Of a stretch of DNA of 57,606 nt, positions 1 to 30,799 are shown piece by piece; position 1 is the first letter of the stretch; each line of letters opens with the position of its first letter. This DNA comes from Luteibacter sp. UNC138MFCol5.1 (GTDB lineage Bacteria > Pseudomonadota > Gammaproteobacteria > Xanthomonadales > Rhodanobacteraceae). A program made the translations under genes and the position numbers. Location: NCBI RefSeq assembly GCF_900110505.1, contig NZ_FODZ01000002.1, positions 1 to 57,606 of the forward strand, written 5' to 3'. The notes below the pieces were generated by a model. The model was not told the origin of the DNA, did not search any database, and was given only the letters and a program-made list of their open reading frames with translations.

Positions 1-300
1 ATCGTGCACACCGATCAGGGGTGCCAATACACCGCCGATCTGTTTGTTGCTCATCTGGCCGAACACGGCGCCATCCAAAGCATGAGCCGCAAAGGCAATT
101 GCTGGGACAACGCCGTGGTCGAGCGGGTCTTCCGGACCCTGAAACACGAATGCCTCGGTGAGGAACGCCTGCCGCGGGAAATGACTCGCGTGGCGGTCAT
201 CGACTATCTGGCCGGCTACTACAACCACGAGCGTCTACACTCGACCCTCAACTACCTTCCGCCAGCAGAATTCGAAGCACTGGCGGCTCAATGCTCCTAG
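1..300 (+). CDS. IS3-family transposase OrfB, C-terminal fragment (cut by window edge)
   Basis: This is the last 99 codons of an rve-type DDE integrase; the reading frame is open from base 1, so the gene begins outside the window. The visible part has the HTDQGCQY stretch around the second catalytic Asp, then the GNCWDNAVVERVFRTLKHE block containing the catalytic Glu, and the YYNHERLHSTLNYLPPAEF tail typical of IS3-family OrfB. It catalyses strand cleavage and transfer for the element. No break is visible in this part, so it may be intact, but the N-terminal half and OrfA cannot be seen. Family assignment is firm; the subgroup is not determined. Confidence 0.9.
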   Translation: MVHTDQGCQYTADLFVAHLAEHGAIQSMSRKGNCWDNAVVERVFRTLKHECLGEERLPREMTRVAVIDYLAGYYNHERLHSTLNYLPPAEFEALAAQCS

Positions 301-330
301 CTCGTGGTCCAGGAAAGTCCAGCCACTACA
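1..330 (+). mobile_element. Right end of an IS3-family insertion sequence
   Basis: The transposase ends at 300. The following 30 bp, including GGTCCAGGAAAGTCC near 306-320, resemble a terminal inverted repeat and end in CA at 330, as IS3-family elements do. From 331 the sequence becomes GGCGCGCTCCTAC, which is one half of the REP-like palindrome found elsewhere in this window. The border at 330/331 is inferred because the left end is outside the window. Confidence 0.65.
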
Positions 331-13124: not shown

Positions 13125-15500
13125 ATGCCCGCCATGACCGAACCGCTCGCGCCCGATCTGCTGCGCCGCATGCACGCCTACTGGCGCGCCGCGAACTATC
13201 TCTCCGTCGGCCAGATCTACCTGCGTGACAATCCGCTGCTCGAGAAACCGCTGGGCAAGGAGCACATCAAGCATCGCCTGCTCGGTCACTGGGGAACGAC
13301 GACCGGACTCAACTTCATCTACACGCACCTGAACCGGGCGATCGTCGAACGCGACCTCGACATGATCTACGTGATCGGCCCGGGGCACGGTGGACCCGGC
13401 CTCGTCGCGCACACGTACCTCGAAGGCTCGTACACCGAGGTCTATCCGCACATCGATCGCAGCGCGGCCGGCATGCGCGAGCTGTTCAGGCAGTTCTCGT
13501 GGCCGTACGGCATCCCGAGTCACGTGGCCCCGGAAACGCCCGGCTCGATCCATGAAGGCGGCGAACTCGGTTATTCCCTCTCGCATGCGTACGGCGCGGC
13601 CTTCGACAATCCGGAACTCATCGTCGCGTGCATCGTCGGCGACGGGGAGGCCGAAACCGGCGCGCTCGCGACAAGCTGGCACTCGAACAAGTTCCTGAAC
13701 CCCGCGCGCGACGGCGCGGTGCTGCCGATCCTGCACCTCAACGGCTTCAAGATCGCGAACCCCACCGTGCTCGCGCGCATCGAGCCCGACGAGCTGCGCG
13801 ACCTCATGCGTGGCTACGGCTACGAGCCGCACTTCGTCGAAGGCCACGAATTCGAACCGATGCACCAGGCCTTCGCCGCGGCGCTCGACCGCTGCCTCGA
13901 CGAGATCCGCCGCATCCAGGAGAAGGCGCGCGGCGGCGACGCCGACGCGGCCACACGTCCGCGCTGGCCCATGATCGTGTTCCGCAGCCCCAAGGGCTGG
14001 ACCGGGCCGAAGGAGGTCGACGGCAAGCCCGTGGAAGGCACCTGGCGCGCGCACCAGGTGCCCATCGCGAAGTTCGAGAACGACGAACACGTCGCGATCC
14101 TCGAGCGCTGGATGAAGAGCTACGAACCGGAGGAGCTCTTCGACGAGCGCGGCCGCTTCCGCGAGGAGTTCGCCTCGCTCGCACCGACGGGGCGCCGACG
14201 CATGGGCATGAACCCGCACGCGAACGGCGGGCTGCTGCTGAAGCCCCTGCACATGCCCGACTTCCGCGGCTTCGCCGAGGACGTGAAGACGCCCGGCGAG
14301 CACAAGGCGGAGGCGACGCGCGTGCTGGGCCGCTTCCTGCGCGAGGTGATGCGGCAGAACATGGAGACCTTCCGCCTGTTCGGTCCCGACGAGACGGCCT
14401 CGAACCGGCTCGAGGCGGTGTACGAAGCCAGTGGCAAGACATGGCTGGCCGAAACGGAAAGCGTCGACGAGAACCTCTCGCCGGCCGGGCGCGTGATGGA
14501 GGTGCTGAGCGAACACCAGTGCCAGGGCTGGCTCGAGGGCTACCTGCTGACGGGCCGGCATGGGTTCTTCTCGTGCTACGAGGCCTTCATCCACATCATC
14601 GATTCCATGTTCAACCAGCACGCGAAGTGGCTGAAGGTGACGCGCAAGATGGCGTGGCGCCCGCCGATCGCGTCGCTGAACTACCTGCTGAGCTCGCACG
14701 TGTGGCACCAGGACCACAACGGCTTCTCGCACCAGGATCCGGGCTTCATCGACCACGTCGCCAACAAGAAATCGGAGATCGTGCGTGTTTACCTGCCACC
14801 GGACGCGAACTGCCTGCTCTCGGTCGCCGACCATTGCCTGCGCAGCCGCCATTACGTCAACGTGATCGTGGCCGGCAAGCAGCCCGACTGGCAGTGGCTG
14901 GACATGGAGAGCGCCGTGCGCCATTGCACGGCCGGCGCGGGAATCTGGGAATGGGCAGGACGCGGCGGAGACGATCCCGACGTGGTCATGGCCTGCGCGG
15001 GCGATGCGCCGACGGTGGAGACGCTCGCCGCGGTGATGCTGCTGCGCGAGTACGTGCCCGACATCCGCATACGCGTGGTCAACGTGGTCGACCTGATGTC
15101 GCTGGAAACGCCCGACGAACATCCGCACGGCATGGACGACGAGCAGTTCGACGGCCTGTTCACGAAGGATCGTCCGGTGATCTTCGCCTTCCATGGCTAC
15201 CCCGGCATCATCCACAAGCTGACCTATCGCCGGCACAACCACGACAACATCCACGTGCGCGGCTACAAGGAAGAAGGCACGACCACCACCGCGCTCGACA
15301 TGATGGTGCTGAACAACATGGACCGCTTCCAGCTCGCGCTCGACGCGATCAACCGTATCCCGCGCCTGGCGGGCGAACGCGAAAAGGCGGCACAGCGCTA
15401 CTGGTCGGCCATCGAGCGGCACAAGCTCTACGTCAGCGAACATGGGCAGGACCTGCCCGACGTGCGCGACTGGCAGTGGAAGGCCGAGGAGGCCTCGTGA
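13125..15500 (+). CDS. xfp: Xylulose-5-phosphate/fructose-6-phosphate phosphoketolase
   Basis: 791 aa thiamine-diphosphate enzyme that splits xylulose-5-P (or fructose-6-P) with phosphate to acetyl phosphate plus glyceraldehyde-3-P (or erythrose-4-P). Strong family blocks: [54 protein letters not shown] (ThDP/Mg binding), [13 protein letters not shown] and [19 protein letters not shown]. Length is typical. It starts at 13125 or at the second Met at 13134; neither has a strong Shine-Dalgarno site. Its stop overlaps the ackA start (GTGA), so acetyl phosphate is passed directly to acetate kinase for ATP formation. Confidence 0.97.
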
Positions 15501-16723
15501 GTCGCGCCGGGCACGTGCTGGCCCTCAACACGGGCTCGTCGTCGCTGAAATACGGGCTCTATCGTGTGGAAGGCGACATGTGCGAGGCACTCTTCGCCGA
15601 CCAGACCGACGCGCCGGGCGGTGACGCGGACCCGGTGGCGGCGATCGTCGATGCCCTGCGCACGCGTTCGCTGCCGACGCCGGACGCGGTCGGGCACCGA
15701 CTCGTGCATGGCGGGCCGAACATCCGCCGGCATGCGCGTATCGACGATGCCCTGATGGCACACCTGGAAGAGGCGAAGGCGTTCGCGCCGTTGCATGTTC
15801 CCCCGGCGGTCGAGATGGTGAAGCGGGCGCGCAAGGCATTCCCCGATGCGCCGCAGGTCGCCTGTTTCGATACGGCGTTCCACGCCAGCATGCCCGCCGT
15901 CGCGCGCGCCCTGCCCCTGCCCGCCGATCTTCGCGAGGGCGGCATCGAACGTTACGGGTTCCACGGGCTGTCGTACGAATCGATCGTGCGGAAGCTGGGG
16001 CCTTCGATGCCGTTGCGCGTCGTGATCGCGCACCTGGGCAACGGCGCGAGCCTGTGCGCGGTGCGTGACGGCGAGTCGGTGGATACGACGATGGGCCTGA
16101 CGCCCACGGGCGGCATCGTGATGGGCACGCGGCCGGGCGATCTGGATCCCGGCGTGTTGCTGTACCTGATGCGCGAACGCGCCTACGACGCGAAGCGGCT
16201 GGAGTTGCTGGTCGACCGAGAGTCGGGCCTGAAGGGTCTTTCTGGCGGCATCAGCGACATGCGCAAGCTGCGCGAGTCGCACGACGCGGCGGCGAAGCTG
16301 GCGCGCGACGTGTTCGTGCATGTCGCACGCAAGCACGTCGCGGCGATGGTGGCGTCCCTGGGCGGGCTCGACCTGCTGGTGTTCACGGGCGGCATCGGGG
16401 AGAACGACGCGGCGACGCGGGATGCGATCCTCGCGGGCCTGCAGTGGTTCGGCGACTTCGAGGTTCGCGTGATGGCGACGGAAGAAGACGAACAGATCGC
16501 GAGGCACACAAAACAAGACGCCGGGAGCCGCAGGTCCTGTTGCTCACGGCTTAAACAGATGTCGCGCGCAGGGCGCGCTCCTACAGGACGGCGTCAGACG
16601 ACCACGACCGGGCGGGATGCGATCCTCGCGGGACTGCAGTGGTTCGGCGACTTCGAGGTCCGCGTGGTGGCGACGGAAGAAGACGAACAGATCGCGAGGC
16701 ACACCTGGCGCCTCGCTTCGTAG
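15497..16723 (+). CDS. ackA: Acetate kinase with duplicated C-terminal segment
   Basis: 408 aa, GTG start overlapping the xfp stop. It converts acetyl phosphate plus ADP to acetate plus ATP. Active-site blocks are present: [52 protein letters not shown] and TGGIGEND. The family fold should end soon after [12 protein letters not shown] (about residue 338). Instead the frame continues through about 34 residues encoded by a copied REP-like repeat and fumarase 3' end (including MSRAGRAPT), and then repeats residues 308-338 as 373-403 before ending WRLAS. DNA offset between copies is 195 bp, exactly 65 codons, with 3 mismatches in 92 bp. The stop TAG lies inside the next repeat arm. Whether the tail is tolerated is unknown; the catalytic part looks complete. 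Confidence 0.92.
16418..16509 (+). repeat. Tandem duplication of ackA 3' end, copy 1
   Basis: 92 bp matching 16613-16704 with three substitutions, at a 195-bp offset. It encodes residues [10 protein letters not shown] to IARHT of acetate kinase. After 16509 it diverges from copy 2 because a 46-bp stretch carrying the native stop and one repeat arm is replaced here by 10 bp. Confidence 0.95.
16520..16602. repeat. Duplicated repeat arm plus fumarase 3' end, copy 1
   Basis: 83 bp identical to 16751-16833. The segment includes a class 1 REP-like half (16560-16584) and the last bases of the fumarase gene including its stop (TCAGACGAC on this strand). In copy 1 these bases are translated as part of ackA. 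Confidence 0.95.
16613..16704 (+). repeat. Tandem duplication of ackA 3' end, copy 2
   Basis: Second copy of the 92-bp ackA segment. It is followed by the codons for WRLAS and a TAG stop, so this copy retains the ancestral end of the gene and its junction with the repeat pair. Confidence 0.95.
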
Positions 16724-16815
16724 GAGCGCGCCCTGCGCGCGACATCTTTCGCCGGGAGCCGCAGGTCCTGTTGCTCACGGCTTAAACAGATGTCGCGCGC
16801 AGGGCGCGCTCCTAC
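16720..16815. repeat. REP-like inverted pair, class 1, between ackA and fumarase
   Basis: Left arm GTAGGAGCGCGCCCTGCGCG from 16720, right arm ending GCAGGGCGCGCTCCTAC at 16815, separated by about 45 bp of low-symmetry sequence. Each arm can also fold alone (GCGCGC with a CCT or AGG loop). The TAG at 16721-16723 is the stop of ackA. The element sits between convergent genes, nine bases before the fumarase stop. Confidence 0.9.
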
Positions 16816-16824
16816 AGGACGGCG

Positions 16825-18342
16825 TCAGACGACGACCACGGGAATCTTCCCGATCTTCGAGCGCCACTCCTTCGGGCCCGTCTCGTGCACCGACGTGCCC
16901 GCGCTGTCGACCGCGACCGTCACCGGCATGTCCTTGACCTCGAACTCGTAGATCGCCTCCATGCCGAGGTCTTCGAACGCGAGCACGCGCGAGGCCTTGA
17001 TCGCCTTGGAGACGAGGTATGCCGAGCCGCCGACGGCCATCAGGTACACGGCCTTGTTGTCGCGGATCGCCTCGATCGCGGCCGGACCGCGCTCGGACTT
17101 GCCGACCATGCCCAGCAAGCCCGTCGTCTCCAGCATCTGGCGCGTGAACTTGTCCATGCGCGTGGCCGTGGTCGGGCCGGCCGGACCGACGACCTCGTCG
17201 CGCACCGGATCGACCGGACCGACGTAGTAGATGAAGCGGTTGGTGAAATCGACGGGCAGCGTTTCGCCGCGGTTGAGCATGTCGATCATGCGCTTGTGCG
17301 CGGCGTCGCGGCCCGTGAGCAGCTTGCCGTTGAGCAGGATCGTCTCGCCCGGCTTCCAGCTCTGCACGTCCTCGCGGGTGATCGTGTCGAGGTCCACGCG
17401 ACGGCCCTTCGAGGCGTCGTACGTGAGCTTCGGCCAGTCTTCCAGCGACGGCGGATCGAGCGCGACCGGGCCGGAGCCGTCGAGCACGAAGTGCGCGTGG
17501 CGCGTGGCGGCGCAGTTCGGGATCATCGCCACCGGCAGGTTCGCCGCGTGCGTCGGGTAATCCTTCACCTTGATGTCGAGCACGGTGGTGAGGCCACCCA
17601 GGCCCTGCGCGCCGATGCCGAGCGCGTTGACCTTCTCGTAGAGCTCGAGGCGCAGTTCCTCCGCGCGGTTCGACGGGCCGCGCGCGATCAGGTCGACGAT
17701 GTCGATCGGCTCCATCAGCGCTTCCTTCGCCAGCAGCATCGCCTTCTCGGCGGTACCGCCAATGCCGATGCCGAGCATGCCCGGCGGGCACCAGCCGGCG
17801 CCCATCGTCGGCACGGTCTTCAGCACCCAGTCGACGATGGAGTCGGACGGGTTGAGCATCGCGAACTTGGACTTCGCCTCGGAGCCGCCGCCCTTGGCGG
17901 CGACGATGACGTCGACCTTGTCGCCCGGCACGACCGAGACGTTCACCACGGCAGGCGTGTTGTCGCGCGTGTTCATGCGCTTGCCCGCCGGATCGGCGAG
18001 CACCGAGGCGCGCAGCTTGTTGTCGGGGTGGTTATACGCGCGGCGCACGCCCTCGTTGACCATGTCCTCGACGCCCATGGTGGCGTCGTCCCAGCGCACG
18101 TTCATGCCGATCTTGAGGAACACGGTGACGATCCCGGTGTCCTGGCAGATCGGCCGGTGGCCCTCGGCGCACATGCGCGAATTGATCAGGATCTGGGCGA
18201 TGGCGTCCTTCGCCGCCGGGGATTCCTCGCGCTCGTACGCGGCCGAGAGGTTCCGGATGTAATCCACCGGGTGGTAGTACGAGATGTACTGGAGGGCGTC
18301 GGCGACGCTGGTGATGAGGTCGTCCTGCTTGATCGAGGTCAT
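16825..18342 (-). CDS. Fumarate hydratase, class I (iron-sulfur, single chain)
   Basis: 505 aa oxygen-sensitive [4Fe-4S] enzyme hydrating fumarate to L-malate in the TCA cycle. The alpha-type part (to about residue 290) has CQDTGIVTVFLKIGMNVRW and WCPPGMLGIGIGGTAEKAM; conserved Cys residues in CQDTG, WCPPG and PNCAATRHAHF are likely cluster ligands. The beta-type part has LLTGRDAAHKRM, VGPAGPTTATRMDKFT and the AYLVSKAIKASRVL segment. The start at 18342 (MTSIKQDD) is chosen because the longer open frame adds unrelated residues. It is divergent from the thioredoxin-like gene. The last 9 bp of the gene plus the adjacent repeat have been copied into ackA. Confidence 0.95.
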   Translation of the reverse strand: MTSIKQDDLITSVADALQYISYYHPVDYIRNLSAAYEREESPAAKDAIAQILINSRMCAEGHRPICQDTGIVTVFLKIGMNVRWDDATMGVEDMVNEGVRRAYNHPDNKLRASVLADPAGKRMNTRDNTPAVVNVSVVPGDKVDVIVAAKGGGSEAKSKFAMLNPSDSIVDWVLKTVPTMGAGWCPPGMLGIGIGGTAEKAMLLAKEALMEPIDIVDLIARGPSNRAEELRLELYEKVNALGIGAQGLGGLTTVLDIKVKDYPTHAANLPVAMIPNCAATRHAHFVLDGSGPVALDPPSLEDWPKLTYDASKGRRVDLDTITREDVQSWKPGETILLNGKLLTGRDAAHKRMIDMLNRGETLPVDFTNRFIYYVGPVDPVRDEVVGPAGPTTATRMDKFTRQMLETTGLLGMVGKSERGPAAIEAIRDNKAVYLMAVGGSAYLVSKAIKASRVLAFEDLGMEAIYEFEVKDMPVTVAVDSAGTSVHETGPKEWRSKIGKIPVVVV

Positions 18343-18460
18343 GGCGCTACGGCTGGCTCGCGAGGCTGGCAAAGACCACGATTTTAACGCACCCGGGCGT
18401 GTAAGGTGCCGCTGCCCCGTCCGGTCTTCTTCCGGGACCCGCCAGAACCCTGGAGTCTCC

Positions 18461-19432
18461 ATGCGCCACCCGTTCCGTTCCGCCTTCCTCGTCGTCGCCC
18501 TCGCCGCCACGGCGCTGGGACTGGCGCGCCCTGCCGCCGCGGCGCAGACCGCGCCGGAGTTCGCCGGCATCGCCACCTGGCAGAACTCGAAGCCGCTGAC
18601 CATGAAGCAGCTGCGCGGCAAGGTCGTGCTGATCGATTTCTGGGCCTATTCCTGCATCAACTGCCTGCGCACCCTGCCCCACGTGACCCGCTGGTACGAC
18701 CAGTACAAGGACAAGGGCCTGGTCGTCGTGGGCGTGCATTCGCCCGAATTCCCGTTCGAGAAGCAGGAAGGCAACGTCCGCGACGCCATCAAGCGGTACA
18801 ACATCCACTACCCCGTGGCGCAGGACAACGACCTGGCCACCTGGGACGCCTGGGACAACCAGTACTGGCCCGCCGAGTACCTCGTCGACCAGCGCGGCAA
18901 CGTCGTCGCCCATCACTTCGGCGAGGGCAACTACGCCGAGATGGAGAACGCGATCCGCACCCTGCTCGGCCTGCCGCGCCTCGACGCCGCGGCCGCGGGC
19001 GAGGACAAGGACGCCCCCGACTTCACGCAGCTGGGCTCGCCGGAGATGTACTTCGGCAGCGACCGCAGCCAGAACAACGCCAGCCCCGAGGGTTCCCGCG
19101 GCGGCACGCGCGACTTCACCGCCCCGTCGCGCCTCGACCTGAACAAGTTCGCGCTCGTGGGCCGCTGGGAGATCGGCCGGCAGAACGCGACGCTGGAAGG
19201 CCCGTCCGGCGAGATCCGCCTGCACTTCAAGGCGAAGAAGGTCCACATGGTCGCCAGCGCGAACGATCCGGTGACCGTGGAGGTGCTGGTGGACGGCAAG
19301 CCGCAGGCGCCCGTCACGATCCAGGCCTCGCAGCTGTACACCCTGTACACGGCCAACGACTACAAGGACCACGTGCTGACGATCCGGATTCCCAAGGCGA
19401 ATTTCCACGCGTTCACGTTCACGTTCGGCTGA
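18461..19432 (+). CDS. TlpA/DipZ-like thioredoxin-domain protein, exported
   Basis: 323 aa. Residues 1-28 look like a signal peptide ending LARPAAAAQ. Residues 32-175 form a TlpA-like thioredoxin domain with the active site YSCINCLRTLP (CxxC) and DFWAYSCINC context typical of DipZ. Residues about 215-323 form a beta-rich domain (VGRWEIGRQNATLEGPSGEI, VTVEVLVDGKPQAPV) like the C-terminal carbohydrate-binding-like domain of DipZ. The N-terminal CcdA membrane domain of full DipZ is absent, so electrons must come from another membrane donor. It is divergent from fumarase and 75 bp upstream of the regulator operon. Confidence 0.88.
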   Translation: MRHPFRSAFLVVALAATALGLARPAAAAQTAPEFAGIATWQNSKPLTMKQLRGKVVLIDFWAYSCINCLRTLPHVTRWYDQYKDKGLVVVGVHSPEFPFEKQEGNVRDAIKRYNIHYPVAQDNDLATWDAWDNQYWPAEYLVDQRGNVVAHHFGEGNYAEMENAIRTLLGLPRLDAAAAGEDKDAPDFTQLGSPEMYFGSDRSQNNASPEGSRGGTRDFTAPSRLDLNKFALVGRWEIGRQNATLEGPSGEIRLHFKAKKVHMVASANDPVTVEVLVDGKPQAPVTIQASQLYTLYTANDYKDHVLTIRIPKANFHAFTFTFG

Positions 19433-30702: not shown

Positions 30703-30799
30703 GTAGGAGCGTGCCTTGCGCGCGACAGCTTTCGAGGCCTTGAGCAACAGGCCCTGTTGCCCATCGCGAAAAACTGTCGCGCGCAAGGCGCGCTCCTAC
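30703..30799. repeat. REP-like inverted pair, class 1 variant
   Basis: Left arm GTAGGAGCGTGCCTTGCGCGC from 30703, right arm GCGCGCAAGGCGCGCTCCTAC ending 30799. The two arms have matching changes (CCTTG/CAAGG in place of CCCTG/CAGGG), a compensatory pattern that implies selection or co-copying of the pair. The stop codon of the VOC gene (minus strand TAG, 30796-30798) is inside the right arm. Confidence 0.9.

Follow-up and report, generated by a model that had tools for sequence, protein, structure and literature searches.

In this study, we analysed the junction between ackA, the acetate kinase gene, and the convergent fumarase gene in a 57,606-nucleotide stretch of Luteibacter sp. UNC138MFCol5.1 DNA (hereafter the window). 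The 3′ end of ackA, the palindrome behind it and the fumarase tail are duplicated there, the ackA frame is open through the duplicated sequence, the two fumarase tails in the array are different alleles, and the duplication is absent from the other genus genomes examined. This is a species-specific gene-end duplication that places half a REPIN in a metabolic enzyme. Our main reading, to which we give a probability of about 0.5, is that a diverged allele of the REPIN-bearing junction was duplicated, extending the sole AckA found in the genome and leaving the enzyme active with a neutral tail. Of this reading, we infer the insertion route, the order of events, the activity of AckA and the neutrality of its extension.

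The duplicated junction and the extended acetate kinase

A preceding sequence-only reading had proposed a tandem duplication of the ackA end, a palindrome and the fumarase tail, and the repeat anatomy bears this out (Table 1). The two copies of the ackA 3′ end agree at 90 of 93 bases (97%), with mismatches at 16438, 16465 and 16472 in the numbering of copy 1 (in the protein, copy 2 has V at a residue that is M in copy 1), and are followed by a second, exact repeat of 84 bp (16519–16602 and 16750–16833); both repeats had been described in that reading, including the three mismatches, and they stand at the coordinates given here. Each is far longer than expected by chance, the other ungapped direct repeats across 15400–17400 being 12–19 nt. 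Between the two repeats lie 9 bp in copy 1 and 45 bp in copy 2, the latter consisting of the usual ackA end and the left REP arm. The replacement had been counted as 46 bp by 10 bp, which the present comparison corrects, and the accompanying proposal that copy 1 lost its stop along with one palindrome arm stands. Tandem Repeats Finder gave seven rows for the window, the array not among them, probably owing to the 36-bp length difference between the copies. A 13-mer spanning the 9-bp filler matched only itself in the genome at up to one mismatch, so that the source of the filler was not found.

Table 1. Features of the ackA–fumarase junction, in window coordinates.
Feature	Position	Strand	Remark
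Phosphoketolase	13125..15500	+	upstream, overlaps ackA start
ackA, extended 3′ end, 408 aa	15497..16723	+	PF00871; GTG start, TAG stop in REP head
Copy 1 of ackA 3′ end (native position)	16417..16509	+	from repeat comparison
Filler AAAACAAGA, 9 bp	16510..16518	+	stands where copy 2 has 45 bp
REPIN remnant, copy 1 (lacks left arm; spacer and right arm kept)	16519..16584		read in ackA frame
Second fumarase-tail allele (PVVVV-stop)	16594..16611	-	antisense part of AckA linker
Copy 2 of ackA 3′ end	16612..16704	+	about 31 residues repeated
Copy-2-only 45 bp	16705..16749	+	WRLAS-stop and left REP arm
Intact REPIN, 28-nt arms 40 nt apart	16720..16815		GTAG head with stop codon
Class I fumarase, ORF as listed	16825..18621	-	convergent with ackA; resident tail allele 16825-16843

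The ackA frame is open from its GTG start through the TAG at 16721–16723, which agrees with the earlier proposal of read-through into the palindrome and fumarase tail. The proposed gain of 65 residues is likewise upheld when reckoned from the usual end at residue 343. The protein matches the Acetate_kinase profile PF00871 at 5e-84 over residues 54–319, scores 275.7 bits against TIGR00016, below the cut-off of 293.4, and has all the invariant columns of a 45-row AckA alignment (44 of the 61 loci found were used and 17 omitted), columns which we take to include the catalytic residues. A second full-length acetate kinase was not found in the genome. The linker of the 408-residue frame contains the REPIN remnant, and since the frame belongs to a known protein family, this is an intragenic REP; translation of the REP-encoded residues is predicted from the DNA. 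A weak DUF7394 match at residues 294–358 (E 2.1e-5; 25.2 bits, below the cut-off of 27) reaches from the ordinary kinase end into the first part of the linker, and was taken as ordinary kinase end.

In an AlphaFold2 model, block means of confidence were 85–98 for residues 1–340 and 36–67 for residues 341–408, so that the kinase core appears to be kept and the tail, modelled at low confidence, is predicted to be floppy. The input alignment spans copy 1 only, and the model therefore could not favour copy 2. With the native fold modelled as complete ahead of the tail, AckA is probably functional, and its extension is best read as a probably neutral by-product of a REP hotspot.

Searches of 22 other genus genomes gave an AckA match in 20 (none in G011 or in G012, the latter 80% complete). 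AckA is 341–351 residues long in 19 of the 20 and ends in WRLAS or similar, as had been expected by the sequence-only reading, which had also named a long tail conserved in relatives as the result that would count against it. The duplicated tail is present in none of the 20 genus AckAs, and few rows of the 45-row alignment have residues past about 350, which rules out a conserved long tail. Among the matches listed in a genus-wide DNA search, the array was not seen in any further genome. The junction itself is prone to tandem arrays. In G005 (locus L010), a 96-bp unit comprising the last ackA codons, the stop and a palindrome is present in 4.4 tandem copies that are 94% alike; relative to the end of the ackA stop, the array begins 15 bases upstream and reaches 408 bases downstream, and the first stop is retained, leaving the AckA protein unchanged. 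Small arrays of REP-like sequence are present at the junction in G014, G016 and G006. The AckA of G019 (locus L012) has 406 residues as a result of REP read-through, out of frame with the REP TAG, into the antisense fumarase end; there ackA overlaps the fumarase gene by 127 bp, and this REP-coded extension is separate from that in the window.

The REPIN and the stop codons of REP heads

The palindrome had been read as REP-like, which is confirmed for the REP; the element is, however, a full REPIN, and copy 1 retains its spacer and right arm. It consists of two inverted REPs with head GTAGGAGC and arms that are 100% complementary, and is placed in the GTAG REP superfamily by its inverted GTAG REPs around a spacer, its high copy number and a RAYT flanked by the same type. 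The head pattern GTAGGAGCGCGC occurs 179 times in the genome versus five times for a reversed control pattern, and at least 98 genome matches to the REPIN region were found with 40 of 179 candidates scored. The RAYT-type gene, with a Y1_Tnp match at C13:245–559, is flanked by a truncated REP of this type and, on its opposite side, by a full REPIN, consistent with its being the cognate RAYT and a putative mobiliser of the element. REPINs with a cognate RAYT (PMC3116915) share with it the two inverted REPs, the spacer, the many copies and the RAYT beside the same type; the element here is ordinary and the copy-1 remnant alone is unusual.

Insertion sequences (IS) are also found at REPs in this genome. 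An integrase-core (rve) transposase fragment lies at the start of the window (1–330), with the IS tip abutting a REP. Among 13 contig ends at IS tips, eight have a REP directly at the tip, which suggests an IS that targets REPs.

The stop of the 408-codon frame is the TAG (usually called amber) of the REP head. The same is true of ackA in five of the 20 relatives (L016, L017, L018, L019 and L028), and 15 of the 20 have a perfect inverted repeat of at least 14 nt after ackA. Since the GTAG head carries the stop, loss of the left REP arm meant loss of the stop. A survey of the organism's own genome listed 100 of the 179 REP heads; 89 heads (in 40 stretches and the window) were tested, and a codon-scored gene lay upstream of 65. 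The threshold for this score was chosen by hand, some genes are shared by adjoining heads, and the head behind ackA is among the 24 lacking a scored gene. The stop of the upstream gene was the REP-head TAG at 8 of the 65 scored gene ends, a peak, and none of the 65 genes stopped 2–200 bases past the start of the head, which speaks against general REP read-through in this genome. The heads surveyed include one at window position 30799 on the minus strand.

The peak agrees with the excerpted text of PMC3733652, in which GTAG REPs often provide the stop codon TAG (there named 'opal'). That text also describes intragenic GTAG REPs, some of them C-terminal. A REP inside a protein, as the sequence-only reading had emphasised, is therefore present here but not new. 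The intragenic REPs in that excerpt resemble the present case in having a GTAG REP in coding sequence and a stop in the REP head. They differ in that here a REPIN sat behind the gene and was brought into frame by duplication and loss of the stop-bearing arm, and in that AckA additionally contains a second copy of its own end. The palindromic elements of Rickettsia, named in the same excerpt and found in frame within genes, are similarly palindromic repeats translated within proteins, but they represent insertions inside the open reading frames of other bacteria, with the end of the host gene not duplicated.

Origin of the duplication

The fumarase tails carry much of the argument on origin. 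The 18 bp of the copied tail still encode the fumarase end, and copied and resident tails mismatch past the exact repeat at tail positions 10, 13, 16 and 19 (16603, 16606, 16609 and 16612), all third codon positions, the last possibly being ackA-side sequence. The copied tail differs from that of G020 at one of 19 bases, the resident tail at three, and 14 nt of the copied tail are shared with two other species' tails, those of G022 and G003. Third-position changes affect four of six fumarase-tail codons versus two of 31 ackA codons (p 0.003 by Fisher's test, for a comparison picked after seeing the data). Over all bases, the copies differ at 3 of 93 in ackA and at 0 of 84 in the REPIN part, and where the ackA copies disagree, copy 1, not copy 2, matches the nearest relative, L014, at two of the three positions. 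On this short stretch, and post hoc, the array thus holds two junction alleles, distinguished by the four fumarase positions and the ackA differences, and these together favour a duplication involving a diverged allele. The sequence-only reading had assumed a copy of the resident junction; the duplication holds, but a plain copy is not the best fit as the copied fumarase tail is another allele.

The simplest reading of these sequences would be a two-allele mosaic with its joint at CGGG. Most likely the junction existed as a second allele, diverged to some degree and comprising ackA tail, REPIN and fumarase tail, which was joined end to end at this short match and inserted beside the resident junction; one possible route is single crossover with a fragment that had been imported and end-joined. 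A deletion in copy 1, leaving 9 bp of filler, would then have taken out the stop codon along with the left arm of the REP, so that the ribosome would run through the REPIN remnant, the antisense fumarase tail and the second ackA end and stop at the TAG of the intact REP. Ku is encoded in the genome, which we counted in favour of this reading. In E. coli conjugation, duplications of 109–950 bp arose when truncated molecules recombined by single crossover, according to the excerpted text of PMC3240628, which likewise concerns duplication of a homologous locus; that was a laboratory plasmid system, and the donor here is suggested by allele differences only. Counting against a diverged allele, the argument spans about 19 bp, and segment identity among 21 genus genomes pointed to no clear donor, either for copy 2 or for the resident fumarase tail. 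Third-position windows in seven genomes likewise showed no clear change along the fumarase gene in which relative is nearest. The identical REPIN part also needs a recent origin, identical alleles or gene conversion.

Gene conversion figures as well in a tentative alternative, to which we give some weight: an old, simple duplication within the chromosome, by slippage or template switching at the hairpin, with the REPIN part kept identical by conversion. The perfectly complementary 28-nt REPIN arms, the REP-containing tandem array of G005 with copies about 94% alike, and the fact that the fumarase-tail differences are all synonymous, as if the resident gene had changed under constraint, would all suit this explanation. 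It requires, however, changes at four of six fumarase third positions, at two of the 31 in ackA and at none of the 84 REPIN bases, and it leaves the copied tail nearer to G020 than the resident tail is. We regard as unlikely that the array is an assembly artefact, such as a mixture of strains or reads misjoined at the REPIN. This is a draft assembly of 16 contigs, of which the window is contig 6, and 13 of the 20 contig ends examined (of 32) lie in an IS copy, eight of them with a REP at the tip, while two of the remaining seven (the ends of contigs 6 and 4) begin with other REP-like palindromes. Breaks therefore go mostly with IS copies, and REP regions still call for caution. Set against an artefact are the sequence differences between the copies, a filler absent elsewhere in the genome, an estimated contamination of 0.11 and the many REP heads that sit within contigs.

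It is very improbable, in our assessment, that the tail is functional, whether as a regulatory or stabilising C-terminal domain or as a hairpin that tunes translation. The intact frame and the retained ending of copy 2 could be cited for it, as could an mRNA stem inside the coding region, where 16557–16584 can pair with 16720–16747 (MFE −186.1 kcal/mol, z −7.2 against 100 shuffles) in a hairpin that might slow ribosomes. However, within the genus the tail is known from a single genome, copy 2 owes its open frame to descent, the structure prediction for the tail is of low confidence, and a REPIN folds strongly regardless of its location.

Significance for gene-end evolution in Luteibacter

The extended AckA has the look of an accident caused by repeats in the genome rather than of a new system. 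What is new, relative to the excerpted text of PMC3733652 in which intragenic REPs and REP-supplied stops are already in print, is the entry of a REPIN by duplication and arm loss, and our search of the open-licence literature found no published account of this acetate kinase case. A broader suggestion, which we hold to be doubtful, is that REPs abutting the ends of genes drive C-terminal change, in which arm loss removes the stop supplied by the GTAG head and tandem duplication at the hairpin then adds residues encoded by the REP and by the duplicated gene end. For this suggestion Luteibacter AckA would be a natural test case, with two independent REP-coded extensions, in this genome and in G019, and with a tandem array of the ackA end and a palindrome in a third species, G005. 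If our main reading is true, the locus shows a mobile palindrome's stop codon being lost together with the palindrome, and an enzyme of central metabolism may tolerate a long accidental tail. The ackA–fumarase junction of the genus would then provide a comparative test bed for REP-driven change of gene ends.
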